A stretch of DNA of 64,000 bases from Salinigranum halophilum (GCF_007004735.1 NZ_SSNL01000004.1:558001-622000); one strand, 5' to 3'. Shown: positions 2,646 through 15,721, counted from the first letter of the stretch. Notes: generated by a model from the letters alone, not told the origin. Numbers and translations: made by a program.

Positions 2646-4142
2646 ATGAACGACATCACCGAGGCGACCATCGACGACATCCACGTCGCGTACGAGGGCG
2701 GCGAACTCACCTGCCGCGAACTCGTCGAAGCGTATCTCGACCGCATCGAGGCCTACGACGAGAACGGTCCCGCACTCAACGCCATCGTCACCGTCAATCC
2801 GAACGCGAGGGCGCGGGCGGACGAACTCGACGCCGCCTTCGACGAGAGCGGCTTCGTGGGCCCGCTTCACGGCATCCCCATCGTCGTCAAAGACCAGGTC
2901 GAGACGGCCGGAATCACGACGACGTTCGGTTCCGAGGCCTTCGCCGATTACGTGCCCACGGAGAACGCGACGCTCGTCACGCGACTCGAGGACGCCGGGG
3001 CAGTCATCCTCGCGAAGACGAACCTCCCCGACTGGGCCACCTCGTGGTTCGGCTACTCGTCGGTCATCGGACGCACCAAGAACCCGTACGACCTCGACCG
3101 CGACCCCGGCGGGTCGTCGAGCGGGACCGGCGCGGCCGTCGCGGCCAACCTCGGCACGGTCGGCATCGGCGAGGACACCGGCGGCTCCATCCGCCTCCCG
3201 GCCGCGTACACCAACCTCTTCGGCATCCGCGTGACGCCGGGGCTGCTCCCGCGGACCGGGATGTCGCCGCTCGTCGTCTCGCAGGACACCCCGGGCCCGA
3301 TGGCGCGCACGGCGAAGGAGTTGGCACAGGTCCTCGACGCGACGGTCGGCTACGACGCGGCCGACGAGTACACCGCGGTGAACGAACTCACTGAGGCCGC
3401 CGGCCACTACACCGACTCGCTCGATGCGAACGCGCTCGCGGGGGCCCGCATCGGTGTCCTCCGTGACCTGTTCGGCGACAGGGACGCCCCCGACAGCGGC
3501 CCCGTCACGCGGAAAGTCGACGAGGCGGTCGAGACGATGGCCGACGCCGGGGCCGAACTGGTCGACCCGGTCTCGATTCCGAACCTCGGCGAGCACTTCG
3601 AGGCCACGCTGCTCTACATCGCCCAGTCCAAGCGCGACCTGAACGAGTTCTTCGCCGCGCGCGAGGACGCCCCCGTCGGCTCGGTGTCGGAACTGTACGA
3701 GTCGGGGCAGTACCACGAGGTCCTCGACCTGTTCATCGGCATCGCCGAGAACGGGCCGGAGGACCCCACGGACGACCCCGGCTACTGGGAGGCCGTCGCC
3801 GCTCAGTCCGCGTTCCAGCGGGCGGTCCTGAACGTCTACGCCGCACACGACCTCGATGTCCTGCTCTGTCCCGACGCCCAGGTCATCCCGCCGACGGCGG
3901 CGGCCATCGAAGCGGGCGAACTCGACACGATGACGTTCCCGACCAACACCATCCTCGCCTCGCAGTCGGGGCTCTGTGCTGTCTCGGTCCCCGCGGGACT
4001 GACCGACGACGGCCACCCGGTCGGAGTCGAACTCATCGGGAAGCCGTACGACGAGTCGACCCTCCTGTCGCTCGCGCACTCGTTCGAGCAGGTCGCGCCC
4101 GCGCGCGTGCCACCGGCGACGACGCCGCCGCTCGACGACTGA
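2646..4142 (+). CDS. amidase signature family enzyme
   Basis: A 498-residue cytoplasmic amidase of the amidase-signature family (GatA/FAAH fold), hydrolysing a carboxamide to acid and ammonia. The Ser-cisSer-Lys triad is intact with family spacing: Lys82 (VVKDQ), Ser157 in GGSSSG and nucleophile Ser181 in DTGGSIR (75 and 24 residues apart, as in FAAH). It is close to full length for the family. It is unlikely to be the tRNA amidotransferase subunit GatA, because no gatC or gatB lies nearby and the C-terminal half is unlike GatA; the substrate is unknown. An AT-containing segment (acagttatggtatccc) about 50 bp upstream could be its promoter. Confidence 0.93.
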   Translation: MNDITEATIDDIHVAYEGGELTCRELVEAYLDRIEAYDENGPALNAIVTVNPNARARADELDAAFDESGFVGPLHGIPIVVKDQVETAGITTTFGSEAFADYVPTENATLVTRLEDAGAVILAKTNLPDWATSWFGYSSVIGRTKNPYDLDRDPGGSSSGTGAAVAANLGTVGIGEDTGGSIRLPAAYTNLFGIRVTPGLLPRTGMSPLVVSQDTPGPMARTAKELAQVLDATVGYDAADEYTAVNELTEAAGHYTDSLDANALAGARIGVLRDLFGDRDAPDSGPVTRKVDEAVETMADAGAELVDPVSIPNLGEHFEATLLYIAQSKRDLNEFFAAREDAPVGSVSELYESGQYHEVLDLFIGIAENGPEDPTDDPGYWEAVAAQSAFQRAVLNVYAAHDLDVLLCPDAQVIPPTAAAIEAGELDTMTFPTNTILASQSGLCAVSVPAGLTDDGHPVGVELIGKPYDESTLLSLAHSFEQVAPARVPPATTPPLDD

Positions 4143-4234
4143 GTCGGGGAGGCGTCCAGGCCTGGGCGCGAGATACCCACGTCGACTGCTCCGACCCGTA
4201 TCTTCATCCGACGGCGGGAACGAACAGCCGGCAC

Positions 4235-5077
4235 ATGGCAGTTCCCACACACACGCTCCCGAGCGGCGACGAACTCCCCGCGGTCGGCCTCGGGACCTGG
4301 AAACTCGACGACGAGACGGCGAAAGAGAGCGTCCACGCGGCGCTGGACGCGGGCTACACGCACGTCGACACCGCCGAGGGCTACCGCAACGAACGCGGTA
4401 TCGGCGAGGCGCTCGCCGAGTCCGAACACGACCGCGACGACGTCTTTCTCACCTCGAAGGTCCTCCCGAAGAACCTCACCTACGACTCGCTCATCGAGGC
4501 GTGTGAGGCCTCGCTCGACCGACTGGGAACGGAGTACCTGGACCTGTACCTCATCCACTGGCCGAACCCGGCCATCTCGCTGCGGGAGTCACTGGACGCG
4601 ATGGCGACGCTGTCGGACCGCGGGCTGGTCCGAAACGTCGGCGTGTCGAACTTCAGCGCCTACCAGCTCAGCTGTGCCCACCACGTCAGCGACGTCCCCA
4701 TCGCGGTGAACCAGGTCGAGTTCCACCCGTGGTTCCAGCGGCCCGACCTCGTCGACTACTGCCGCGACACCGAGACCGTGGTCGAGGCCGCGGCACCGCT
4801 CGCGCGGACCGAGATATTCGCTGACGAGGTGGTACGCGAACTGGCCCAGAAGTACGACACGTCCGCGGCACAGGTCGTCCTCCGGTGGGCGCTCGACCGC
4901 GACGTGGTCGTCCTGCCGAAGTCCTCCTCGCCGGCGCACGTCCGGCAGAACCTGGAACTCGACTGGGAACTGGACGACGCGGACCGAAGCCGCCTCGACG
5001 ACCGCGACCGCGACCAGCCGGTGTACGACACGCCCGCGCGTGACTGGACGGGGGACACGTACGGCATCAACCGGTGA
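4235..5077 (+). CDS. aldo/keto reductase
   Basis: A 280-residue NADPH-dependent aldo/keto reductase reducing an aldehyde or ketone. The catalytic tetrad is complete: Asp45 and Tyr50 in VDTAEGYRNE, Lys75 in TSKVLPK and His108 in LIHWPNP. The C-terminal phosphate-binding loop for NADPH reads VVLPKSSSPAHVRQNLE. The barrel is complete; the fold lacks the longer loops of animal AKR1 members and looks like the prokaryotic AKR5/DkgA group. It follows the amidase after 92 bp in the same orientation, so they may be co-transcribed, but I see no metabolic link. Confidence 0.93.
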   Translation: MAVPTHTLPSGDELPAVGLGTWKLDDETAKESVHAALDAGYTHVDTAEGYRNERGIGEALAESEHDRDDVFLTSKVLPKNLTYDSLIEACEASLDRLGTEYLDLYLIHWPNPAISLRESLDAMATLSDRGLVRNVGVSNFSAYQLSCAHHVSDVPIAVNQVEFHPWFQRPDLVDYCRDTETVVEAAAPLARTEIFADEVVRELAQKYDTSAAQVVLRWALDRDVVVLPKSSSPAHVRQNLELDWELDDADRSRLDDRDRDQPVYDTPARDWTGDTYGINR

Positions 5078-5132
5078 GCGAGAACCAGGACGGGGACTCG
5101 ATGTGGATCGAGTGACGGAAGGCGGGAGACCG

Positions 5133-6308
5133 CTATCCGAACGTCTGACGTGACGGCTCGTCGCGGGCCCGGTCGAGCGTGACGACGAGGACGCTGCCCG
5201 TTGGACTGTCTCCGTCGGTGTCAGTCGGGGTCGTGTCCACGTATTCTTCTCCCTGGCTGTCTTCGACCTGGGTGCGGTCCTCGACGTGGACGGAGCCGTC
5301 GTATATGTCGACGAGTGTGTCGACCAGATAGAGCCCGAGACCGGACCCGGGGCTCTCCAACCCCATCTCGCCGCGGCCGAAGATGACGTCCTTGCGACTG
5401 TCGGGGATACCCGGGCCGTTGTCGGCGATTCGAACCGTCACGGTGTCGGGGTCGACTGTGACTGACACGACGACCTCGGGCGCGTCCGTATCGTTGTGGA
5501 CGACGGCGTTCGTCAGGAGGTTGCCGAAGACGGAGGTGAGGAGTTCAGTCGCTGCGACGTCGATCCCGTGTGGGAGAGCGCTGTCGACAGTGACGACCGC
5601 GTCCTCGTGTGTCGACTGGATTTTTGCGATCTCGGTCTCGAGCAGTCGACCGAGGTCGACGGCGTGGAGGTCGGGGTCGCTATCGGATTCGAGCATCTCG
5701 AGGAAGTCGCCGACGGTCTGGGCGATTCCGTTGATGTGCTGTCCGGAATTGATGATGAACTCGAGGTACTCCTCGCCCGCCGGGTCGACGTGGTCGTGAA
5801 GGCGGTCACCCCAGCCGATGATGACCGAGACGTCGTTCTTGATGTCGTGCCGGACGATGCGGTTCAACAGCGCGAGTTCCTCGTTTCGGCGGGCAAGTTC
5901 CCGTTCGCGACGTTCGCGCTCGACGGCGTACTGGAGTGTCCGTCTGAGGAGTTTCGGCGTGAGGTCCGACTTGATGACGTAGTCTTGGGCCCCACGTTCG
6001 ACGGCCTCGATTCCGACGCGTTCGTCATCGAGACCAGTGAGCACGACGACCGGTTCATCGCCGGAGGCGTCGAGCATCGCCGCAAGGGTTTCCAGCCCCG
6101 AACTGTCCGGGAGTTCGAGGTCGAGCAAGACGAGATCGACCTCCTCACCAGCTGTGGCAAGGGCCCCGTCCAAGCGTTCGACCCGGTGGAGTTCGGGCCT
6201 CCCCTCGAGGCCGGGCCAGTGTTCCTCTCGGAGGTACTCCTCGATGAGGCGTGCGTCGCTTTCGTTGTCCTCGACGAGCAGGATTCGTTCGGGTGCCACG
6301 TCAGTCAT
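5133..6308 (-). CDS. receiver-histidine kinase (REC-HisKA-HATPase)
   Basis: A 391-residue cytoplasmic hybrid with an N-terminal receiver (residues 8-125, phospho-acceptor Asp63 in LLDLELPDSSGL). A short coiled linker leads to a histidine kinase core with H-box His154 (RIVRHDIKND). N-box (NLLTNAVVHN), G1 (DNGPGIP) and G2 (GSGLGLYLV) ATP-binding motifs follow. The receiver-first order suggests that phosphorylation of Asp63 controls the kinase, or that it takes phosphate from the upstream kinase. Its start overlaps the end of the upstream receiver gene by 8 bp, making it the last gene of a four-gene signalling operon. It has no sensor domain and no DNA-binding output. Confidence 0.95.
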   Translation of the reverse strand: MTDVAPERILLVEDNESDARLIEEYLREEHWPGLEGRPELHRVERLDGALATAGEEVDLVLLDLELPDSSGLETLAAMLDASGDEPVVVLTGLDDERVGIEAVERGAQDYVIKSDLTPKLLRRTLQYAVERERRERELARRNEELALLNRIVRHDIKNDVSVIIGWGDRLHDHVDPAGEEYLEFIINSGQHINGIAQTVGDFLEMLESDSDPDLHAVDLGRLLETEIAKIQSTHEDAVVTVDSALPHGIDVAATELLTSVFGNLLTNAVVHNDTDAPEVVVSVTVDPDTVTVRIADNGPGIPDSRKDVIFGRGEMGLESPGSGLGLYLVDTLVDIYDGSVHVEDRTQVEDSQGEEYVDTTPTDTDGDSPTGSVLVVTLDRARDEPSRQTFG

Positions 6309-6747
6309 GTGTCGAAGGGGTCACCTCCGGAATCCAGAACCGCATCGTCGCGACGACAGTCTCGATGAACGTGTCCGGGTCGGTTGGCTTCATAACGTAG
6401 GCGTTAGCTCCTGCTTTGTATGCGGCGGCAATATCCTCTGGGTTTTCCGAACTCGACAGGACGACTACGGGCGTGTGGCTCGACGCGCGGTCACGAAGCG
6501 CGTCGAGGACCTCGAGTCCGGACCGGCCCGGGAGGTTCAGGTCGAGCAATACGAGGTCGAGGTCGAAGTCGACGGGGCGACGGTCGGCGGCGAGCCACTC
6601 GATCGCGTCTGTCCCGTTGGCAATGACCTGAACTGTGACGTCGGTCGGCGCAGCCGCGACGCCCTCCTCAATGAGGTGGACGTCGCCGGGGTTGTCCTCG
6701 AAGACGAGGAGGCACGCCCCGTCTGCTGGCAGCACGCAGTCGGTCAC
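6301..6747 (-). CDS. stand-alone response regulator receiver (Rcp1-like)
   Basis: A 148-residue single-domain response regulator. The acidic pocket (FEDNPGD near residue 17), phospho-acceptor Asp69 (LLDLNLPGRSG), Ser/Thr switch (VVLSSSENPED) and Lys (YVMKPTDPDTF) are all present, and no output domain follows. The longer-than-usual loop between beta-2 and beta-3 resembles cyanobacterial Rcp1, the partner of phytochrome kinases. This fits the upstream kinase, whose core is phytochrome-like. A GTG start overlaps the kinase stop (GTGA), and the 3' end overlaps the next gene by 8 bp, so these genes should be translationally coupled. It probably shuttles phosphate between the two kinases. Confidence 0.93.
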   Translation of the reverse strand: MTDCVLPADGACLLVFEDNPGDVHLIEEGVAAAPTDVTVQVIANGTDAIEWLAADRRPVDFDLDLVLLDLNLPGRSGLEVLDALRDRASSHTPVVVLSSSENPEDIAAAYKAGANAYVMKPTDPDTFIETVVATMRFWIPEVTPSTHD

Positions 6748-9700
6748 GGCGCTCGCTTCCGCTGGAGCCTGACTCGGAACGTCGACCCACGGCCGGGAGT
6801 GGATTCAGCTCGGATCGTCCCACCGTGGTGGTCGACGATTTTTCGACAGACCGAGAGGCCGATACCGGTACCGGCGAACTCCTCACGGGTGTGGAGTCGC
6901 CTGAACACCTCGAAGACGTCGTCAAGTCTGTCGGGGTCAATGCCGATTCCGTTGTCCGTGACGGCGTACTCCACGACGTCGCCGTCGTGGTCGACGGAGA
7001 CGGCGACACGGGCGTCGTCTTCGCTGTACTTGATAGCGTTCTCGACGAGGTTCTGGAACAGTTGGACGAGTTGGCTCTCGTCGCCGGCGACAGCACCTGC
7101 AGACGAGGGGAAGCTGACGGTCGCGTTCGACTCGTCGATCATCAACTCGAGGTTTCTCCCGACCTGCTCGAACACGGTGGCCATCTCGACCGGCTCGAAC
7201 GCGGCATCGCTCGTCGTCACCCGCGAGTAGGCCAATAGTGCCTGAATCATCTCTCGCATCCGGTCGGCGCCATCCACGGCGAAGTCGATGAACGTCTCTG
7301 CGTCGGCGTCGAGTTCGTCGCGGTAGCGCCGTTCGATCAGTGTGAGGTAACTCGAGACGGTCCGAAGCGGCTCCTGAAGGTCGTGGGATGCCGCGTAGGC
7401 GAACTGTTCGAGCTCCTCGTTCGATCGTTCGAGCTGGGCACGCGTCTCGTAGAGGAGTCGCTCGTGCTCTGCGCGATTCAGTGCCTCCTCGACAGTCGCC
7501 GCGAGAATCGTGAGCAGTTCTCTGTCGGTCGCAGAGATGGCGCGGCTCACAGTCGACGCACTGACCAGCACGCCGTGGCCGCCAAGGGGCACGATCATCT
7601 CCGACTGCAACAGCGTCTCGTCGTTGTACCGACCGTCGACCGACTGGAGGTCGTCGTAGACGAGCGGCTCGTTCCGCGCGAACGACTCCCAGGCCAGCGC
7701 CTCGTTCCGCACGAACGTCGGCTGGTCGCCGACCACCTCCGCCGCCGCGTCGGTCATCACTGCGGGGGCGAGCGAGTTCGTCGGCTCGTCGTGCCACCAG
7801 ACGCCTGTTATCGGGAGTTCGAGGACCGACTGTGCGCTCTCGATGGCGATGCGGGCAATCTCGTCCGCGTCGCCGGTCGTCAGGAGTCGCTGGGCGGTCT
7901 CGTTGAGGCGCCGGAGCTTCGTCTCTACCGCGTCACCGGCGAGTTCGTACCCGACCCACTGGACGAGCAGGTCGGCGAACGCCCGCTCCGTCTCGTCGAA
8001 CGGGTGTGTCCGGTTGTCGTGGTCAGCGAAGCAGAGCGTTCCATACACGTCCCCGTCGACGACGACCGTCCCACCGAGATAACAGCCGAGACCGAACGCC
8101 TCGTATGCCGGGTCGTCTTCCCACCCCTCGTCGGCGGCGCTTCGGACGTGGAAGACGCCGCCGGTCTCGACCGTCCGGCGACAGTACGTCTCACTCAGTG
8201 GGACTGACGTGCCGGGCTGGAGGTCCGGATGGTCACCCCACGCCTCGACGACGTGTTGGCGGTCGTCGTCGACACGGGTCAGGAAGCCGTGGTCGACACC
8301 CAGTCGGTCACAGCCGAGGCGGAGCACCGACGCCAGTTTCGTCCCGAAGTCGCGGTCGGCGTCGGCAGCGACCGCGGTGACCTCCCGGAGTGACTGCTCG
8401 CTCTCTCGGAGCGACTGTTCTAGACGCTTTCGCTCGGTTATGTCCCGGGCGAACCCAACCCACTGTGCGACGCGGTTCTCCGCGTCGAAAATCGGGAACG
8501 TGAGGTTCGAGAGGTACCGGAGGTCGCCTTTGGTGTCGTAGATGCGGTAGTCGTCTTGTATCTCCGCTGGTGGGTCGTTCTCGTCGGCCCACTGTGCCAT
8601 CCGGGTCGTCATCTCGAGTTGTTCGCGTCGATCGTCGGGGTGGACACACGAGAAATACGCCGTCAGGTCGTCGTAGAGTTCCTGTTTGGAGAGGCCGGTC
8701 GTCTCCGCAATCGTGTCGTTGACGTAGAGTACCTCGGTCATGTCCGCCGTCCCGAGCCAGATACCCGTCTGACTGGAGTTGACAATCTGCATCAGCGAGT
8801 CGAGAAACTCGGCACGGGTACTGTCGGCGAGGGTCGCCCGCTCGACGGCCCGGTCGAGCTGTTCTTTCAGCTCGCGGATGTCCTGTTCGCGTCGGTAGCG
8901 TTCGGTGACGTCGCGATTCGTACAGATGAGTTTGCCGTCGTCGAGCAACGAGAGTGCGATCTCCTGTCGGACGGGACTGCCGTCGCGTTTCCTGCCGATT
9001 GTCTCACCGCGCCACTCGCCCGCACACTCGATCTCCGGGAAGACCTCGCGTTCGATCCGCTCGATCTCGTCATCGTCGTACAGCCGTCGCCAAGTGCTGC
9101 CGATGAGCTCCTCGGCCTCGTACTCAAAGATGCCGGCGTGTGCCTGATTCATGTAGATGTACTCGTCGTCGGTGTCGAGGACCGAGATGCCGTCCATCGC
9201 CGCCTCCATCGCCGCCGACTGCATCTCAAGCGCCTCCTCACGGCGCCTGAGTTCGGTGACGTCGGTCGCAACACCCAGGACGGCCGGGTCGGTCGACCCG
9301 ACGGGGTCGTACGGGATTTTAGTCGTCTCGTAGACGCGTCGTTCGCCATCGGCGGTCGTCAACGGCTCCTCGGCGATGTGTTTCGGCTCGCCGGATTCGA
9401 TGACCGCACGGTCGTCAGCACGGAATCGCTCGACCTCTGTCCGCGAGCTGGCGAAGTCGGCATCGGTCGATCCTTCCAACTCGGCAACGGTGGTGCCGTA
9501 GGCTGCGGCCGTCGCCTCGTTTGCGAGGAGGAACGTCCCCCCGGCGTCCTTGACGAACACCAACTGCGGCAGGATATCGATTATCTGACGGAGACGGTCC
9601 CGACCGGCACGCACCTCCCTGCGGTCTCGCTGTCGACCCAGTTCCTTGCCGACCCACTGTGCGACCAGTCGAACAAACGTCTCTTCGCTCTCGGAGAACG

Positions 9701-10538
9701 GAGTCGCTCGGGGTTGACGGCTGGAGAAGTTGACCGTTCCGTACCGTTCACCGTCGAGGACGACGGGTGCGCCGAGGTAGGCTTCGAGCCCGAACTCACG
9801 GTACGCCGGGTGTCGCTGGACCTCCACGCCCGCGTTGTGGAAACCAACCACCTCGTCCGACTCGACGACAGACGCACAGAAGGTCTCAGTCAACTCGAAC
9901 GTATCTCCGGTCCCGATTGCGGTGTCGGGAGTCCCGGCTGGCGTGACGACGTGACCGACGGTGTACACCGGCGGCTCGATTTCAGCGAGGATACCGACGT
10001 CAAGTCCGAGGTGTGACGCCCCGAGTTCCAAGACGGCTCGCAGTTGGGCTTCGAACGGCCGCGTCGAGTCGGTCGCGATGTCGTGAAACGCGCGGAGTGC
10101 CCGGTTACGCCCGAAAGCGCGCGTTTGACCGTCGTTGGTGTCGGCCGAAGCTGAGCGTGTGTCGGCCGCTCTCGGCGTGGTCCCACCGGTCGACCACTCG
10201 TCGAACCAGAGCGTCGTCCCGTCGGGGCCGGGGTACACCCGGACCGCGTGGCACGCGGCTCGCGCGTTGTCGACCCTGTCGATCAGAGCCGGCGCACCCG
10301 CGTCGACTGCACGACGGAGCGGGTCGCTCACGGTGAGGTCGGCGAGCCACGGGGCCACCTCCCAGATAACGGTTCCCAGGAGGTCGTCAGCATCGCGGTC
10401 AAAGAGGGCCGCAGCCTGTGGACTACAAGACGTTATCCGCCAGTCGGTGTCGAGACCACAGATTGAGCCGTCGATGCGTCCGAACACGTCGTCGGGAACG
10501 CGCGCCGATTCGGTTGGGTCGTGCGATCCCGAACTCAT
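6744..10538 (-). CDS. large PAS/GAF sensor histidine kinase
   Basis: A 1264-residue soluble sensor kinase. Reading from the N-terminus: PAS (about 15-115); GAF (about 150-320, ending in FGLEAYLGAPVVLDGERYGTVNF); three PAS domains (about 325-780, each ended by a DVTE/DITER motif); two GAF domains (about 790-1030); then HisKA with H-box YAASHDLQEPLR and HATPase with NLVENAIKY, DNGIGID and GTGIGLSV. The H-box and flanks are of the phytochrome/cyanobacterial type. There are no membrane segments, so it senses cytoplasmic signals, redox state or light; no chromophore Cys or haem ligand is evident by eye. It overlaps the upstream regulator by 4 bp and the downstream receiver by 4 bp. Confidence 0.95.
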   Translation of the reverse strand: MSSGSHDPTESARVPDDVFGRIDGSICGLDTDWRITSCSPQAAALFDRDADDLLGTVIWEVAPWLADLTVSDPLRRAVDAGAPALIDRVDNARAACHAVRVYPGPDGTTLWFDEWSTGGTTPRAADTRSASADTNDGQTRAFGRNRALRAFHDIATDSTRPFEAQLRAVLELGASHLGLDVGILAEIEPPVYTVGHVVTPAGTPDTAIGTGDTFELTETFCASVVESDEVVGFHNAGVEVQRHPAYREFGLEAYLGAPVVLDGERYGTVNFSSRQPRATPFSESEETFVRLVAQWVGKELGRQRDRREVRAGRDRLRQIIDILPQLVFVKDAGGTFLLANEATAAAYGTTVAELEGSTDADFASSRTEVERFRADDRAVIESGEPKHIAEEPLTTADGERRVYETTKIPYDPVGSTDPAVLGVATDVTELRRREEALEMQSAAMEAAMDGISVLDTDDEYIYMNQAHAGIFEYEAEELIGSTWRRLYDDDEIERIEREVFPEIECAGEWRGETIGRKRDGSPVRQEIALSLLDDGKLICTNRDVTERYRREQDIRELKEQLDRAVERATLADSTRAEFLDSLMQIVNSSQTGIWLGTADMTEVLYVNDTIAETTGLSKQELYDDLTAYFSCVHPDDRREQLEMTTRMAQWADENDPPAEIQDDYRIYDTKGDLRYLSNLTFPIFDAENRVAQWVGFARDITERKRLEQSLRESEQSLREVTAVAADADRDFGTKLASVLRLGCDRLGVDHGFLTRVDDDRQHVVEAWGDHPDLQPGTSVPLSETYCRRTVETGGVFHVRSAADEGWEDDPAYEAFGLGCYLGGTVVVDGDVYGTLCFADHDNRTHPFDETERAFADLLVQWVGYELAGDAVETKLRRLNETAQRLLTTGDADEIARIAIESAQSVLELPITGVWWHDEPTNSLAPAVMTDAAAEVVGDQPTFVRNEALAWESFARNEPLVYDDLQSVDGRYNDETLLQSEMIVPLGGHGVLVSASTVSRAISATDRELLTILAATVEEALNRAEHERLLYETRAQLERSNEELEQFAYAASHDLQEPLRTVSSYLTLIERRYRDELDADAETFIDFAVDGADRMREMIQALLAYSRVTTSDAAFEPVEMATVFEQVGRNLELMIDESNATVSFPSSAGAVAGDESQLVQLFQNLVENAIKYSEDDARVAVSVDHDGDVVEYAVTDNGIGIDPDRLDDVFEVFRRLHTREEFAGTGIGLSVCRKIVDHHGGTIRAESTPGRGSTFRVRLQRKRAP

Positions 10539-11440
10539 CTGTCTCCCCCGGCACCGAGCGGTGCGGGACGCCGAGGGTCGGTCTTGTCGACGGACTCGGT
10601 CTCGTCGAGTCGGTCGCTGAGCGATTCGAACCGCTCTCGGAGGCGTCCGTACGCGTCGCTCGCCTCGAGGGCGACACGCGAGTGCTCAGCCTCGAGCGCG
10701 TGCAGTTTCGATTCGAGTGCACGGTACTGTCTGACCACCCGGCCGGCTTCGTTTCGCTCGAAGAGGTCAGCAACGACTGCCCGGAGGTCGGCCTCGTGAA
10801 TCGGTTTCGAGATGTACGCGTCGAAGTCCAGGTCGACGACGTCGAACGAGGGCTCGACGGACGTCAGCAGTGCGACCCGACAGTCGTAGTGCTGAGCGCG
10901 GATCCAGTTGAGTACCTCGTCGCCGGAGGTCCCCGGCATCCGGCGGTCTAAGACGACGATGTCGACGTCGTCGTCGAGCACCCGGAGCGCTTCGTCACCG
11001 TCGTGAGCGGTCCTGACAGTGTAGTCGTCCTCGAGCCAAATCGCGTGCATCTGTGCGAGCCGCCTGTTGTCCTCCGCGACGAGTACGACCTGCTCGTCGG
11101 CATCGGCTGCGAGGTACGTCTCACCCCACTCGGCGAGGGCGTCGATTACCTCGGCCAGCGCGTGGCCCCGTTCGGTCAATGAGTACGCAACGCGCAGTGG
11201 CCGGCGACTCACCTCGGTTCGTTCGACAACCTGGTACGTCTGGAGTTCGACGAGGGCGTCTGTCAGTACCTTCGCCGAGATACCGTCGAGTCGGTCCTCC
11301 AAGTCGCTGAATCCGATTCCGTCCCCCGCAGCGAGCGTCCGGACGACGTGTGGGTGCCACTTTTTCGAAAGCAGCGCAGCGCTCTCACCGAGGTACTCCC
11401 CTGGGTCTGCATCTGGCGAACACGTTCGGGGATGATTCAT
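10535..11440 (-). CDS. HxlR-type wHTH fused to receiver and HalX domain
   Basis: A 301-residue regulator with an unusual order. An HxlR-type winged helix (residues about 15-110; LLSKKWHPHVVRTLAAGD and the wing RPLRVAYSLTERG) comes first. Next is a receiver (118-230; phospho-acceptor Asp165 in VVLDRRMPGTSGDE, switch Lys in YISKPIHEADL). A C-terminal HalX helical domain follows, with a coiled segment to residue 290. HalX normally ends receivers without DNA binding, so here the DNA-binding output is at the N-terminus. I chose the ATG at 11440 because upstream in-frame sequence lacks coding character. It is the first gene of the operon and faces the TasA-like locus across a 325-bp divergent region. 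Confidence 0.92.
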   Translation of the reverse strand: MNHPRTCSPDADPGEYLGESAALLSKKWHPHVVRTLAAGDGIGFSDLEDRLDGISAKVLTDALVELQTYQVVERTEVSRRPLRVAYSLTERGHALAEVIDALAEWGETYLAADADEQVVLVAEDNRRLAQMHAIWLEDDYTVRTAHDGDEALRVLDDDVDIVVLDRRMPGTSGDEVLNWIRAQHYDCRVALLTSVEPSFDVVDLDFDAYISKPIHEADLRAVVADLFERNEAGRVVRQYRALESKLHALEAEHSRVALEASDAYGRLRERFESLSDRLDETESVDKTDPRRPAPLGAGGDR

Positions 11441-11765
11441 GATAGCTATGACATCTCTCTGGCTATAATCCTTCTGTAGTGAGAGAATGACACTATAACA
11501 TGAATGTCTGAACATCGTTGGACGCCCGACAGACGGCTGAAATGGTACGCGTTGCCCGCCGCGGTCGGTCCGGAGCCTCGTGTCACTCCGGCGCTGTCCG
11601 TGCCGCGCACGCGCGGAGGCGAGGATCCAATGATTCGACGCCACTGATTGGGGCGGACGCAGTCCAATCACAGCAAGAACCCCCGCACTAACCTGTCGGT
11701 AAGCGACCCGCAAACAAATCAGTAAGCAGACACTTATTGCTCGGGCGAGGAACCGTTCGGTCGTA
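11441..11765. promoter_or_regulatory. divergent promoter region, signalling operon / TasA-like locus
   Basis: A 325-bp gene-free region with starts on both sides. Near the left end are an 8-bp palindrome ATAGCTAT (11442-11449) and AT-rich sequence (ggctataatcc) suited to the leftward promoter. In the right half, an inverted repeat TGATTGG-N12-CCAATCA lies at 11645-11651 and 11664-11670, with a related CCAATGATT just upstream. An AT-rich acacttattg lies about 30 bp before the rightward ATG and could be its TATA box. No small reading frame stands out. Confidence 0.6.
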
Positions 11766-12341
11766 ATGATACGAATCACTCACGCAGTCCTCATGGCAGG
11801 ACTCGTCCTCGTCGCCACGACCGCAGTCGGCGCGAGTGCGTTCACCTCCGCGAGTATCGACCGCGAGGCGAACGCGAACGTTGTCGCAGACCAGAACGGG
11901 TTGCTCTCGCTCACCGACGGTAACTCCGGCGACCTCATCTTCGAAGACGACTCTGGGCAGCTCGCCATGGATCTCACCGCCGGGTCGGCGAAAGGCGCGA
12001 ACACCGACGCGCTGTTCGTCTTCGGTGACCGCCAGTCACCGAGTACCACACAGGCGTTCACGCTCACGAACAACGACGCCACGACACACGACATCACGGT
12101 CTCGTACGACGGTACCGACGACAACAGCGCGGCGAACCTCAAGTTCGAAATCTACGACGCGGAGGGCTCGTCCGTTGGGACTGTCGACGAGGAGGGTACG
12201 ACTGCGACCATCAGCGCCCCAGCTAGCGCCACGTACTACGTGGTCGTGGTGCTCGACACCGGCCACGGTCAAGCGGGCGTTCTGCAGGAGGACACAGACC
12301 TCTCGGGGACGCTCAGCTTCACCATCGACGACGAGAACTGA
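11766..12341 (+). CDS. TasA/camelysin-like secreted protein, putative fibre subunit
   Basis: A 191-residue secreted protein. The signal segment (residues 1-24) ends GASA, followed by FTSASIDREANANVVAD and GLLSL. The mature part is a beta-rich single domain with alternating hydrophobic residues and few charged clusters, ending in strand LSGTLSFTIDD. This resembles archaeal DUF1102 and the TasA/camelysin fold, whose members form biofilm fibres by donor-strand exchange in Bacillus and in Pyrobaculum bundling pili. The dedicated signal peptidase encoded next supports this, as SipW processes TasA in Bacillus. It is inferred to be the main subunit because it is first in the locus and has no Tat signal. 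Fibre formation is not shown by the sequence. Confidence 0.7.
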   Translation: MIRITHAVLMAGLVLVATTAVGASAFTSASIDREANANVVADQNGLLSLTDGNSGDLIFEDDSGQLAMDLTAGSAKGANTDALFVFGDRQSPSTTQAFTLTNNDATTHDITVSYDGTDDNSAANLKFEIYDAEGSSVGTVDEEGTTATISAPASATYYVVVVLDTGHGQAGVLQEDTDLSGTLSFTIDDEN

Positions 12342-12435
12342 CACCGACTGACGAGCGGTCGGACCGACCACACAACCATCGCCGACCGACCGCGCGGCGC
12401 GGCCACCACCACACGACCGCCCTGCACGACTGTCA

Positions 12436-12458
12436 CCGACCGGCCCAGTATCGGTCGG
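12436..12458 (+). other. stem-loop between fibre-subunit gene and signal peptidase
   Basis: CCGACCG at 12436-12442 pairs with CGGTCGG at 12452-12458 across a 9-nt loop (7-bp perfect stem). A second near-perfect palindrome, GGTCGGACCGACC, sits at 12357-12369 just after the upstream stop codon. No T-run follows, so these may be mRNA stabilisers or partial attenuators in the 175-bp gap rather than a simple terminator. Confidence 0.5.
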
Positions 12459-12516
12459 CCGGCCACCACGGTCTGTCGGGCAGACCATCCAGAGGCACCC
12501 ACCGCTTGAGACACCG

Positions 12517-13596
12517 ATGATCCGATCCGTTCTGCTCGCCGTCGTACTCCTCTCCGTCGCGCTGGCGCTAGCCGCACCGGTAGTTTCGCCAGTCCATCTG
12601 TCGTACGTCACCTCCGACAGTATGGCGCCGACGTTAGAGCCCACCGACGGGTACGTGCTGGTCCCCGCAGGCACTATCGAACCGGGCGACATCGTCACCT
12701 ACGACTCCCCGGAGCGAGCAGGACTGGTGACCCACCGGGTGGCCGCTGTGACCGCCGTCGGCCTCGTCACACGGGGCGACGCCAACCCCTCGACCGACCA
12801 GGCGGCGGGCTACCCGCCGGTTCAGCGGGACGACGTCGTCGGCGCGGTACTGACGCTCGGTGGCGAGCCAGTCGTCGTCCCGCGGCTCGGTGCGGGAATC
12901 GCCCTCGTAGAGGCGTACTGGTACCTGGTCGTTGGAGTGCTGGTCGGGCTCGGACTCATCGACGTCACGCGGACGTCCAGCTCCAGACGACGGATGCGAG
13001 CGGTGGTCGTCCGTGGTCGAGACGTCGTGTTCCCCGCAGCTATCGTCGCCGTCCTCGTCGGCGTCGCGCTCGTCTCGATGGCTGCGGTCGGCCAGACGCA
13101 GACGTATCAAGTCGTCGAGACCGAGACGGCAGGCCCCAGCCAGCTGACCGTCGGCCAGATACACACCGAGACGGTCAACCTCCAATTGGCGAGGACGTCG
13201 ATGACGCACGTCGTGTACGACACAGAGGGCATGGAGTTCGTTTCCGTCGCGTCGACCGACGCGGCGTCGGCACCCCGTCCTGCTTCCGGTGACCCCGCCG
13301 GCCGGATTTGGGACCGGTTCTACAGTACCTCAAGCCGGACGGTGACGGTCAGCGTCCCACCGCAAGAGGCGCTCGGTACCCATCGAACGCGGCTCAGCGT
13401 CTCCCCGTACCCGGCGACGCTCCCTTACGGCGTGGTGGCTGCGCTGCACGAGGTCCACCCACTCGTCGCCGCACTGTCGACCGTGCTGGTCGTCGTCGGC
13501 TCGTTCTCCGCCCTCTACTGGCTGCTGGTTGACACCGCGACCCCACTCCGGGGAAGTCGGAGCCGTCGGTTGCACCATCTCGGGAGGCGGCGATGA
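12517..13596 (+). CDS. signal peptidase I, ER/SipW type, with C-terminal extension
   Basis: A 359-residue membrane serine protease of family S26. An N-terminal membrane anchor (residues 4-24) precedes the catalytic region, with nucleophile Ser35 in TSDSMAPTL, His73 in VTHRV and Asp88 in TRGDAN. His in place of Lys marks the archaeal/ER/SipW subtype. Two more hydrophobic segments (about 132-148 and 172-190) flank a short cytoplasmic linker. An ectodomain of about 110 residues follows, then a final membrane segment (about 315-340) and a basic tail. Housekeeping archaeal enzymes lack such an ectodomain, suggesting a dedicated substrate, probably the flanking TasA-like proteins. It overlaps the next gene by 4 bp (ATGA). 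Confidence 0.88.
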   Translation: MIRSVLLAVVLLSVALALAAPVVSPVHLSYVTSDSMAPTLEPTDGYVLVPAGTIEPGDIVTYDSPERAGLVTHRVAAVTAVGLVTRGDANPSTDQAAGYPPVQRDDVVGAVLTLGGEPVVVPRLGAGIALVEAYWYLVVGVLVGLGLIDVTRTSSSRRRMRAVVVRGRDVVFPAAIVAVLVGVALVSMAAVGQTQTYQVVETETAGPSQLTVGQIHTETVNLQLARTSMTHVVYDTEGMEFVSVASTDAASAPRPASGDPAGRIWDRFYSTSSRTVTVSVPPQEALGTHRTRLSVSPYPATLPYGVVAALHEVHPLVAALSTVLVVVGSFSALYWLLVDTATPLRGSRSRRLHHLGRRR

Positions 13597-14405
13597 GGCG
13601 CAGGCGGCGCTGGCAGCCGCGTGGTCACCGTCTGCCGTGGCTGAGGGTGCTCCTCGTGGTGTGCGTACTCGTATCGGCAGTAGGGGCCGTCTCGATCGGG
13701 CCGAGCACGGCGTTCACGAGCGCCACGCTCGCTCGGGGGTCGGCCGCGCCCGTCACCGGCGACGCCACCGGCTTGCTCGGACTCGACGTCTCCCCGAGCG
13801 TGTCGGCGGGCACCGAGAGTCGACTCGTGACCGTCACGAACCGGTTCAGCAAGTCGGTGACGGCCGTCGTCACACTCGACGGTGGTAGCGGGACGCTTTC
13901 GAACGCTCGTGGCCTGCTCGCACCTGGCGCGTCGATGGTCACGACGGTGACGCTGGGGTGTGGCACGCCGCCCGACAGCGTCACGTTCAGCGTCGCCACG
14001 ACGGCCAAGACGGAGCTCCGCGCCGCGGCGAAGCGGTCGACCACCGTCGACGCCAGTGGCTGTACGCGCGCGTCCGCTTCGTTCGCGAGCATCAGCGTCG
14101 TCGACCAGAGCGACCAGCGCCCGCCGCGGAAGGCGCGGTACACGGTCCAGTACGTTGTCGACGCGCGCGAGACGACGTTCGAGCGCGTCACTGTCGAGTT
14201 CGACAACCGCGACCGCAACGAGGTCGAGATGCGCTCGTCGACGGCGCCGAACGACGTCGTCCAGTTCGCGAGCGGTGGCAACCGGAAGGGAGAGACGTAC
14301 GTCATCACGATTCGACTGTTCGACGCGGACGGCGAGGTCGGGACCGCGCGGATCGAGGTGACCGACAGTGCCGACGGCGACGGGACGGTGTACGCGGCAC
14401 CGTGA
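13593..14405 (+). CDS. second TasA-like secreted protein
   Basis: A 270-residue exported protein translationally coupled to the signal peptidase. A basic N-terminus (MRRRRRW) and hydrophobic segment (about 17-36) lead into AFTSATLARGSAAPVTGDATGL, matching the first TasA-like protein at FTSA, Arg, V-x-D and GLL-x-L. That shared stretch is the expected mature N-terminus or donor strand. The rest is beta-rich, with two cysteines (LGCGTPP and DASGCT) that could form a disulfide, and a second domain from about residue 165 ending DGEVGTARIEVTD. The extra domain suggests an anchor, tip or minor subunit rather than the bulk fibre protein. I rely on the shared motif and gene order; family naming is tentative. 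Confidence 0.65.
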   Translation: MRRRRRWQPRGHRLPWLRVLLVVCVLVSAVGAVSIGPSTAFTSATLARGSAAPVTGDATGLLGLDVSPSVSAGTESRLVTVTNRFSKSVTAVVTLDGGSGTLSNARGLLAPGASMVTTVTLGCGTPPDSVTFSVATTAKTELRAAAKRSTTVDASGCTRASASFASISVVDQSDQRPPRKARYTVQYVVDARETTFERVTVEFDNRDRNEVEMRSSTAPNDVVQFASGGNRKGETYVITIRLFDADGEVGTARIEVTDSADGDGTVYAAP

Positions 14406-14575
14406 CGCTGGCTGTCGACAGATGAGACCGCAACGCGGGACCGCTCGCTCGCAGACAGGTCAGCCCACGCCTGTGTCGAGGCTCCACACGGTGGCAGCCC
14501 GCTCGCGTGTACGCCGTGGCCACAGCCGACTTTCCTCGCGGTAAGTCGGGAGCGAAGGTCAGGGTTAGCGCGTGC

Positions 14576-14590
14576 TTTTGCGGTAGCAAA
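14576..14590. promoter_or_regulatory. short inverted repeat upstream of DUF5305-like gene
   Basis: TTTGC-GGTA-GCAAA, 5-bp perfect arms, lies 49 bp before the GTG start and is the only AT-containing dyad in the 233-bp gap. It could be an operator or part of a promoter. Weak evidence. Confidence 0.3.
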
Positions 14591-14638
14591 CCAACGCCAG
14601 TCCATGCAGAACCGTTCAGCCGCCGAGGGGGAGACGAG

Positions 14639-15721
14639 GTGAACGGCTCACTCTCACTCCGCGCGCGGTACCTCTGTGTGAAGTACGGTCGCGTCGTCAT
14701 CGTGTCGCTGGTCGTCGTCAGTCTTCTCAGCTTCGCAGCGGCGGCGACTGTGGCCACAGCCACGCCGGAGCCGGAACGAGTGACGGTCCAGACAGATATC
14801 CAGAGCGTCCAGTCGTCGCTCACGGCGGGCGCGGTCGTGACCGGCAATACCACGCTCTACGACTCGGGGGCAGTCGTCGCTGACCAGCCGGTCTATCTCC
14901 TGGCGGCGACGCCGAACCTCACGGTGTCAGGGATGACGCGGGTCCCCGACGACCGGCCCGTCACGATCTCCCAGGAGCTCACGCTCGAAATCGCTGCGAC
15001 TCGGGACGGTGAGGCCTTCTGGACGGAGCGACGAACACTGGCCGCAACGACTCGTGAGGTGAGAAAGGGGACCGCTCGGACCACGGCGACGGTCGACGTC
15101 GAACGGCTCAGTCGTGGGCGGTTGGCCACTGTACGCGCGGAGGCGGGGCAGGTTGGAACCGTCACCGCGAGGGTCGTCTTCGACGTGCACTACGACACGG
15201 GAACCTACGCCGGCCGGCTTAACGCGAGCGCTCCGCTCGTCGTTACCGACCACGCCTACGAGTTCGAGACGCCTCGGACGACGGCACGGAACCACTCGAC
15301 ACCCGTGACTCACTGGGTCGAGCCGTCGGCTGGCAGGACCGAGGGCGGCACGGGAGGATGGTTACAGTCGCCCGGCCGTCCGGCTTGGCTCGGCGGCATG
15401 GGCGCAGTGGCGCTCGGCGCTGGCGCGGCCGTCGTCGCCGTTCGCCGCAGCGTCGGTGACGCCGACTCCCTCAACCGAGAGTACGAACGGCTGCGCTATA
15501 CTGAGTGGATCTCGCGGGGACGCATCCCTGCTCACGGGGCCACGGTCTACGTTCACATCGAGAGCCTCGTCGAGCTCGTCGACGTCGCGATTGATTCGGA
15601 GAAGCGAGTGATTCACGACGCCCAACAGAACCGCTATGCCGTCATCGACGGAACCGTCATGTACGAGTTCCGTGACGACGACGCGGAGACGAGTGACACA
15701 GGTGTCGATTCGCATCGCTGA
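14639..15721 (+). CDS. DUF5305-like bitopic membrane protein
   Basis: A 360-residue protein with an N-terminal membrane segment (VVIVSLVVVSLLSFAAAAT, about residues 16-38). An extracytoplasmic beta-rich domain of about 200 residues carries several N-x-S/T sequons. A second membrane segment (WLGGMGAVALGAGAAVVAV) and a cytoplasmic tail of about 95 residues (ERLRYTEWISRGRIP, ESLVELVDVAIDSEKRVIHD, AVIDGTVMYEF) follow. This matches archaeal DUF5305 proteins, which tend to sit beside S26 peptidases. I prefer the GTG at 14639, preceded by a purine-rich gggggagacgag, because upstream in-frame sequence is not family-like. It may be an assembly or anchoring factor of the TasA-like locus. Confidence 0.75.
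   Translation: MNGSLSLRARYLCVKYGRVVIVSLVVVSLLSFAAAATVATATPEPERVTVQTDIQSVQSSLTAGAVVTGNTTLYDSGAVVADQPVYLLAATPNLTVSGMTRVPDDRPVTISQELTLEIAATRDGEAFWTERRTLAATTREVRKGTARTTATVDVERLSRGRLATVRAEAGQVGTVTARVVFDVHYDTGTYAGRLNASAPLVVTDHAYEFETPRTTARNHSTPVTHWVEPSAGRTEGGTGGWLQSPGRPAWLGGMGAVALGAGAAVVAVRRSVGDADSLNREYERLRYTEWISRGRIPAHGATVYVHIESLVELVDVAIDSEKRVIHDAQQNRYAVIDGTVMYEFRDDDAETSDTGVDSHR

Follow-up and report, generated by a model that had tools for sequence, protein, structure and literature searches.

Organization of the Locus

The 64,000-nucleotide stretch of Salinigranum halophilum DNA considered here (GCF_007004735.1 NZ_SSNL01000004.1:558001-622000, hereafter the window) carries, at positions 11766-15721, four genes on the plus strand, which encode a secreted protein (P1), a signal peptidase of the endoplasmic reticulum (ER)/SipW type, a second secreted protein (P3) and a DUF5305 membrane protein. 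These genes form a compact operon, read below as a probable locus for a surface fimbria. A first-pass annotation had described two secreted beta-rich proteins flanking a SipW-type peptidase with an ectodomain, followed by a DUF5305 protein, and all four genes were confirmed. The features of the locus are the following (AF2, AlphaFold2; pLDDT, predicted local distance difference test).

11766..12341, plus strand: P1, candidate major fibre subunit, secreted and beta-rich, 191 amino acids (translation; AF2 pLDDT 78)
11766..11837, plus strand: Sec-type signal peptide of P1, predicted as residues 1-24, with a conserved AFTSA motif after it (sequence, comparison)
11838..11897, plus strand: candidate donor strand of P1, residues 25-44, AFTSASIDREANANVVADQN (conserved, mostly unordered in the model)
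12517..13596, plus strand: signal peptidase of the ER/SipW (Sec11) type with extra transmembrane segments and an ectodomain, 359 amino acids
13102..13452, plus strand: peptidase ectodomain, approximately residues 196-312, between two transmembrane segments (sequence, alignment)
13593..14405, plus strand: P3, secreted beta protein, TapA-like initiator or tip-adhesin candidate, 270 amino acids (AF2 pLDDT 81.5)
13710..13763, plus strand: candidate donor tail of P3, residues 40-57, AFTSATLARGSAAPVTGD (P1-homologous by hhalign, unordered in the model)
13773..14057, plus strand: P3 N-domain, a complete immunoglobulin (Ig) fold nearest to PapD-family chaperone N-domains (VIA-align)
14070..14399, plus strand: P3 C-terminal FN3/Ig-like domain (AF2 model, structure comparison, orthologue comparison)
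14507..15721, plus strand: DUF5305 bitopic membrane protein, open reading frame of 404 amino acids (Pfam, 116 bits)

Motif reading reveals no twin arginine in the P1 signal peptide. The peptidase stop codon and the ATG of P3 overlap by 4 nucleotides (ATGA). According to the orthologue alignment, the true start of the DUF5305 gene is probably the GTG at 14642 (359 amino acids). No named family of Pfam or NCBIfam is passed by P1 or P3.

Conservation of the Gene Order

Conservation of the gene order and comparison of predicted structures had been proposed in the first-pass annotation as checks, and both were performed; neither outcome named there as a refutation was obtained, the structural one being judged on P1. 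In 32 fetched loci scanned with family profiles, the order P1, peptidase, P3, DUF5305 occurs on one strand in 21 independent haloarchaeal loci besides the window (L013-L023, L065, L066 and L068-L075; L063 and L064 duplicate L016 and L023 and were not counted). Halorientalis, Halonotius, Haloquadratum, Haloferax mucosum and Halomarina are among the carriers. The peptidase is frameshifted in L019, and only a partial locus is present in L067. Since order and strand recur in so many independent loci, the arrangement is not due to chance. The 4-nucleotide start overlap of P3 is kept in most of the four-gene loci.

Of 195 surveyed haloarchaeal genomes, 14 (counting the window's own) contain a strong orthologue of P1, at E 1.7e-35 or better; no fewer than six families are represented among them. 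The wider P1 superfamily is present in 95 and DUF5305 in 125 of the same 195 genomes. For the peptidase, whose family profile was run over 99 genomes, 84 places with a related enzyme were considered; no fewer than 73 of them have DUF5305 at a distance of up to 10 kb, the chance expectation being about 0.4% each within 5 kb.

Fold and Tail of P1

The P1 model (32 sequences, single chain, pLDDT 78) is all-beta from residue 46, and residues 1-41 are unordered. R33 and D42 are invariant in this tail. With Foldseek, the model is matched first by the thread filament of Sulfolobus and second by the bundling pilus of Pyrobaculum (probability 1.00). VIA-align, which supports the expected fibre-type fold, ranks the bundling pilus protein AbpA first (Z 9.4, 131 residues, 3.7 Å), the Sulfolobus thread second (Z 9.1) and cannula-type tubes third and fifth (Z 8.6 and 7.2). 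The tafi pilus of Natrinema sp. J7-2 (9p0a_C) is matched at Z 8.0 over 135 residues and 3.8 Å; the remaining matches lie at about 7 and below. The predicted fold of P1 is jelly-roll/AbpA-like, the type found in donor-strand archaeal fibres.

A profile of the globular domain, built solely from P1s of the four-gene type with signal peptide and tail excluded, reaches most of the sampled haloarchaeal subunits with twin-arginine translocation (Tat)-type signals at E 1e-10 to 1e-25, the best shuffled decoy being at E 0.09.

AbpA has reportedly been published as TasA-like. TasA is not among the 50 VIA-align matches listed for P1, in which AbpA is present, and neither P1 nor P3 was matched by a TasA/camelysin model of Pfam or NCBIfam at E up to 10. 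No direct match to TasA or TapA, by sequence or structure, occurs among the matches listed, which excludes nothing. The link to TasA proposed in the first-pass annotation is therefore indirect, via AbpA, TasA itself not having been recovered by sequence or structure search.

P3 as a Candidate Initiator with Exchangeable Modules

In the P3 model (21 sequences, single chain, pLDDT 81.5), residues 40-57 are unordered and precede an Ig domain at 61-155 and an FN3-like C-domain. The N-domain is aligned with N-domains of PapD-family fimbrial chaperones at VIA-align Z 10-11 (root-mean-square deviation 2.0-2.5 Å, 92-96 residues). The hhalign comparison of P1 with P3 gives a probability of 98.1% (E 7e-14); the end of the signal peptide, the AFTSA motif and an R(x8)D tail are common to both proteins, and the similarity lies mostly there. 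Their models set the two secreted proteins apart, P1 being jelly-roll/AbpA-like and P3 Ig/PapD-like with a second domain. A fibre-type fold is supported for P1, whose model matches AbpA, thread and tafi subunits, and not for P3, in which the fibre-subunit fold is absent. P3 was also considered as a second shaft subunit; this was rejected, because its fold differs from that of P1 and its C-terminal modules are swapped between loci.

TapA is a complete V-set Ig protein donating its N-terminus to TasA, and tapA and sipW overlap by stop and start codons (PMC10151520), as do the genes of P3 and the peptidase in the window. P3 combines, by prediction only, the two features of this type, a complete Ig domain and a subunit-like N-terminal donor segment. 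P3 is read here, in agreement with the description of TapA, as a TapA-like candidate for the initiator or tip adhesin. What is new in this reading is that P3 is taken not for a second shaft subunit but for an end protein with interchangeable adhesive modules.

The C-terminus of P3 orthologues consists of two malectin domains and CBM35 (L075), laminin-G (L023), a lamin-tail domain (L015) or an unnamed domain, or is absent. Laminin-G is also present in TafC of the reference taf cluster. The L075 orthologue (6626-8578) comprises 650 amino acids, and its malectin and CBM35 domains suggest that the end of the fibre binds sugars. Tip adhesins of the chaperone-usher pili (e.g., FimH) similarly unite a pilus-joining part and a variable binding module; this is an analogy only, and the locus, unlike chaperone-usher pili, lacks genes for a chaperone and an usher.

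The Peptidase and the DUF5305 Protein

The peptidase passes NCBIfam TIGR02228 (57 against a cut-off of 51.85), a profile of its family recovers human SEC11C at E 2e-11, and 15 relatives all keep S35, H73, D88 and D94. Judged by sequence, it is of the ER/SipW type, defined by Sec11 homology and a Ser-His-Asp instead of a Ser-Lys active site, as had been annotated. Homology of its ectodomain to the subunits was unsupported, hhalign of the peptidase with P3 covering just 20 columns at 53%.

The fourth protein passes Pfam DUF5305 (PF17231; 116.3 against a cut-off of 29 bits). Its cytosolic tail contains a conserved motif, EWIS..LVDVAIDS.KRVIHD. The conservation of this tail suggests an unrecognised cytoplasmic role, e.g., signalling or contact with the export machinery. 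In the C-terminal third of the protein (window 14642-15721), the cytosolic tail seems more conserved than the ectodomain. The DUF5305 reading frame of L068 (4310-8128) reaches 1272 amino acids with no additional Pfam domain, which could be a fusion or a long tail. Homology of the DUF5305 ectodomain to the subunits was likewise unsupported (hhalign of DUF5305 with the peptidase, 2%).

Sec-Type and Tat-Type Loci

Haloarchaeal Tat-fimbriae (tafi) were published in 2025, as cited in PMC12687288. The haloarchaeal fimbrial proteins are named TafA, TafC, TafE and TafF in NCBIfam, and the tafi pilus structure of Natrinema sp. J7-2 is deposited as PDB 9p0a. Tafi and the window locus have in common a homologous subunit superfamily, an AFTxA-type processing site, the same predicted subunit fold, a SipW-type peptidase with an ectodomain and a TafC/P3-like protein with an adhesive C-terminal module. 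The study of Galeva et al. 2025 iScience 28:111793 is said to be the one describing tafi and may already mention DUF5305-type clusters.

Signal peptide types were assigned from sequence motifs. Twin arginine occurs in none of the 22 P1s from four-gene loci, whereas 16 of 17 sampled superfamily members outside such loci were parsed with RR, and the 17th (L052) begins with MQRRKFLIG. The peptidases of the Sec-type and Tat-type groups split into separate clades (support 100/100). All Taf scores are below the cut-offs: P1 reaches at best 16.8 for TafE (cut-off 155) and 11 for TafA (cut-off 190), and P3 reaches 25.1 for TafC (cut-off 410). The DUF5305 protein has no NCBIfam TafF match. In the reference taf cluster (L027 in G013), TafA, TafC and TafE are passed and a TafF-like protein scores 299 bits, under the cut-off of 420; there is no DUF5305 nearby. 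Unlike this cluster, the window locus has DUF5305 instead of TafF and the one fixed four-gene order.

The window's genome holds one locus of each type, the Sec-type locus of the window and a twin-arginine locus, L032 (G000:C8:55000-71000). The latter contains, at 3578-8152, a TafE/TafA-like subunit, a peptidase with an ectodomain and DUF5305, with a TafC-like gene on the opposite strand.

An RRAFL-type Tat-like signal was observed on P3 beside a Sec-type P1 in L023 (7092-8276) and L065 (8329-9159). The Sec/Tat split is not absolute, and these signals suggest that in L023 and L065 P1 and P3 of the same locus are exported by different pathways.

The four genes could represent a divergent tafi locus with the same fibre and assembly, in which Sec has replaced Tat and nothing is functionally distinct. 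The common fold, the homology of subunit and peptidase, and the mixed signals of L023 and L065 favour this explanation, and P3 of Haloferax mucosum matches TafC at 68 bits with a laminin-G module in both. The separate peptidase clade, the lack of twin arginine in P1s, the replacement of TafF by DUF5305, the compact gene order and the presence of both types in one genome are against it. This explanation has an appreciable chance of being correct, with the odds somewhat against it. The window locus is placed outside tafi because the Tat signal and the Taf models both fail, though fold and layout are shared. It counts as a separate and less well studied relative of tafi, not as an entirely new type of system. 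The suggestion of an undescribed system is accordingly narrowed: a homologous system has been published and solved, and what stands is the difference in Sec signal, peptidase clade and DUF5305.

Comparison with Other Systems

AbpA of Pyrobaculum calidifontis (PDB 7ueg) shares the predicted subunit fold with P1, and donor-strand assembly is probably common to the two. It originates from a different archaeal phylum, and the PDB sequence search gave no match to it. The predicted fold is also shared with the Sulfolobus thread (Saci_0406, PDB 7pnb), which is exported via Sec and processed by type I signal peptidase; in contrast to the window locus, no dedicated peptidase, P3 or DUF5305 is reported for the thread in the accessible text of PMC9715654. 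The tapA-sipW-tasA operon of Bacillus resembles the window locus in its dedicated ER-type peptidase, in the aromatic residue right after the cleavage site and in the overlapping stop and start codons of peptidase and Ig-type accessory protein (PMC10151520). A peptidase ectodomain, adhesive modules on P3 and DUF5305 are added in the haloarchaeal locus.

P1 and P3 could alternatively be monomeric secreted or S-layer-associated adhesins with a private peptidase and DUF5305 as a membrane receptor. Such a role would agree with the adhesive-looking modules of P3, with the lack of an observed filament and with the commonness of jelly-roll and Ig folds. It is nevertheless improbable, since the fold of P1 is nearest to four polymerising archaeal systems and its conserved disordered tail is of the strand-exchange type. 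Formation of cannula-like tubes or an extracellular matrix network instead of fimbriae, for which the structural ranks of cannula-type subunits could be cited, is very improbable: AbpA and the thread match 131-133 residues of P1 against 113-117 for the cannulae, and the relatives by sequence in haloarchaea bear the annotation of tafi fimbriae. Type IV pili were rejected, as the weak Pilin_N match of P1 (18.2 bits) falls short of the cut-off of 25.2 bits, the peptidase belongs to type I (Sec11/SipW) and is not PibD, no ATPase is among the four conserved genes, and the all-beta P1 model has no long N-terminal helix.

Proposed Mechanism

With a probability of roughly 70%, the four genes are an operon devoted to a thin donor-strand surface fimbria, a Sec-exported branch of the tafi/AbpA-fold superfamily. 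Fibre formation is proposed from genes and models. Several points weigh against this proposal. Filaments made by this locus have not been observed; Z values of 8-9 are moderate for a beta-sandwich, and the AF2 models are single chains derived from only 32 (P1) and 21 (P3) sequences. TapA and TasA structures were not recovered among the matches listed, and the globular-domain profile of P1 has no detectable sequence match to the solved tafi pilin, which is linked to P1 only via tail and structure. Without signal peptide and tail, the P1-P3 probability drops to 74%; PapD-like Ig folds are common, and P3 could serve another role.

Under the fimbria reading, P1 and P3 would exit via Sec, as their signal peptides indicate, and the operon's own peptidase would cut both signal peptides at the conserved 'AFT', freeing the N-terminal tail. 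The P1 tail (R33...D42) would then enter the groove of the next P1, resulting in a polymer as in AbpA, thread and TasA fibres; strand exchange is proposed because of the fold and the disordered conserved tail. P3 would donate a strand and accept none, because it has a P1-like tail and a closed Ig domain, and could therefore start or cap the fibre, as TapA does for TasA. Its C-terminal module, a carbohydrate-binding or other adhesive domain in relatives, would be displayed at the fibre end.

In the weakest step, the DUF5305 protein and the peptidase ectodomain could anchor the fibre at the membrane during its growth or act as its gate. The combined proposal that the peptidase, through its ectodomain and with DUF5305, doubles as a Sec-fimbria assembly platform, and that the TapA-like initiator and an exchangeable adhesive head form one fused protein, is tentative and on balance doubtful.

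Flanking Genes and Candidate Regulators

Downstream of the operon are a Gfo/Idh/MocA oxidoreductase and an FAD flavoprotein, unlike the four genes in kind. The upstream flank is divergent and encodes a histidine kinase and a response regulator.

10535..11611, minus strand: HxlR-receiver-HalX response regulator, divergent, start uncertain (Pfam)
6744..10538, minus strand: PAS/GAF multi-sensor histidine kinase, with a 4-nucleotide overlap between its gene and that of the regulator (Pfam)

This pair may switch the fibre on. Relatives of the regulator and kinase are situated near the orthologous loci L013, L015, L023/L064 and L065, but elsewhere too, and the linkage to the operon is partial and suggestive. 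The HxlR-receiver-HalX regulator was considered as a fixed fifth part; since it is also found in genomes without a strong P1, this role is only suggestive.

Significance

Haloarchaeal fibres of the TasA/AbpA fold would fall into two branches, one of the Tat type (tafi) and one of the Sec type with a minimal set of four genes; one genome is shown to hold both. DUF5305, a family of unknown function, is given a likely role. A TapA-like initiator with interchangeable adhesive heads is proposed in haloarchaea; if this is true, one protein both initiates the fibre and determines what the fibre binds. H. mucosum, which is closely related to the genetically tractable Haloferax volcanii, bears the orthologous locus L023, and thus export route, private processing and end-module identity could be separated in this organism.

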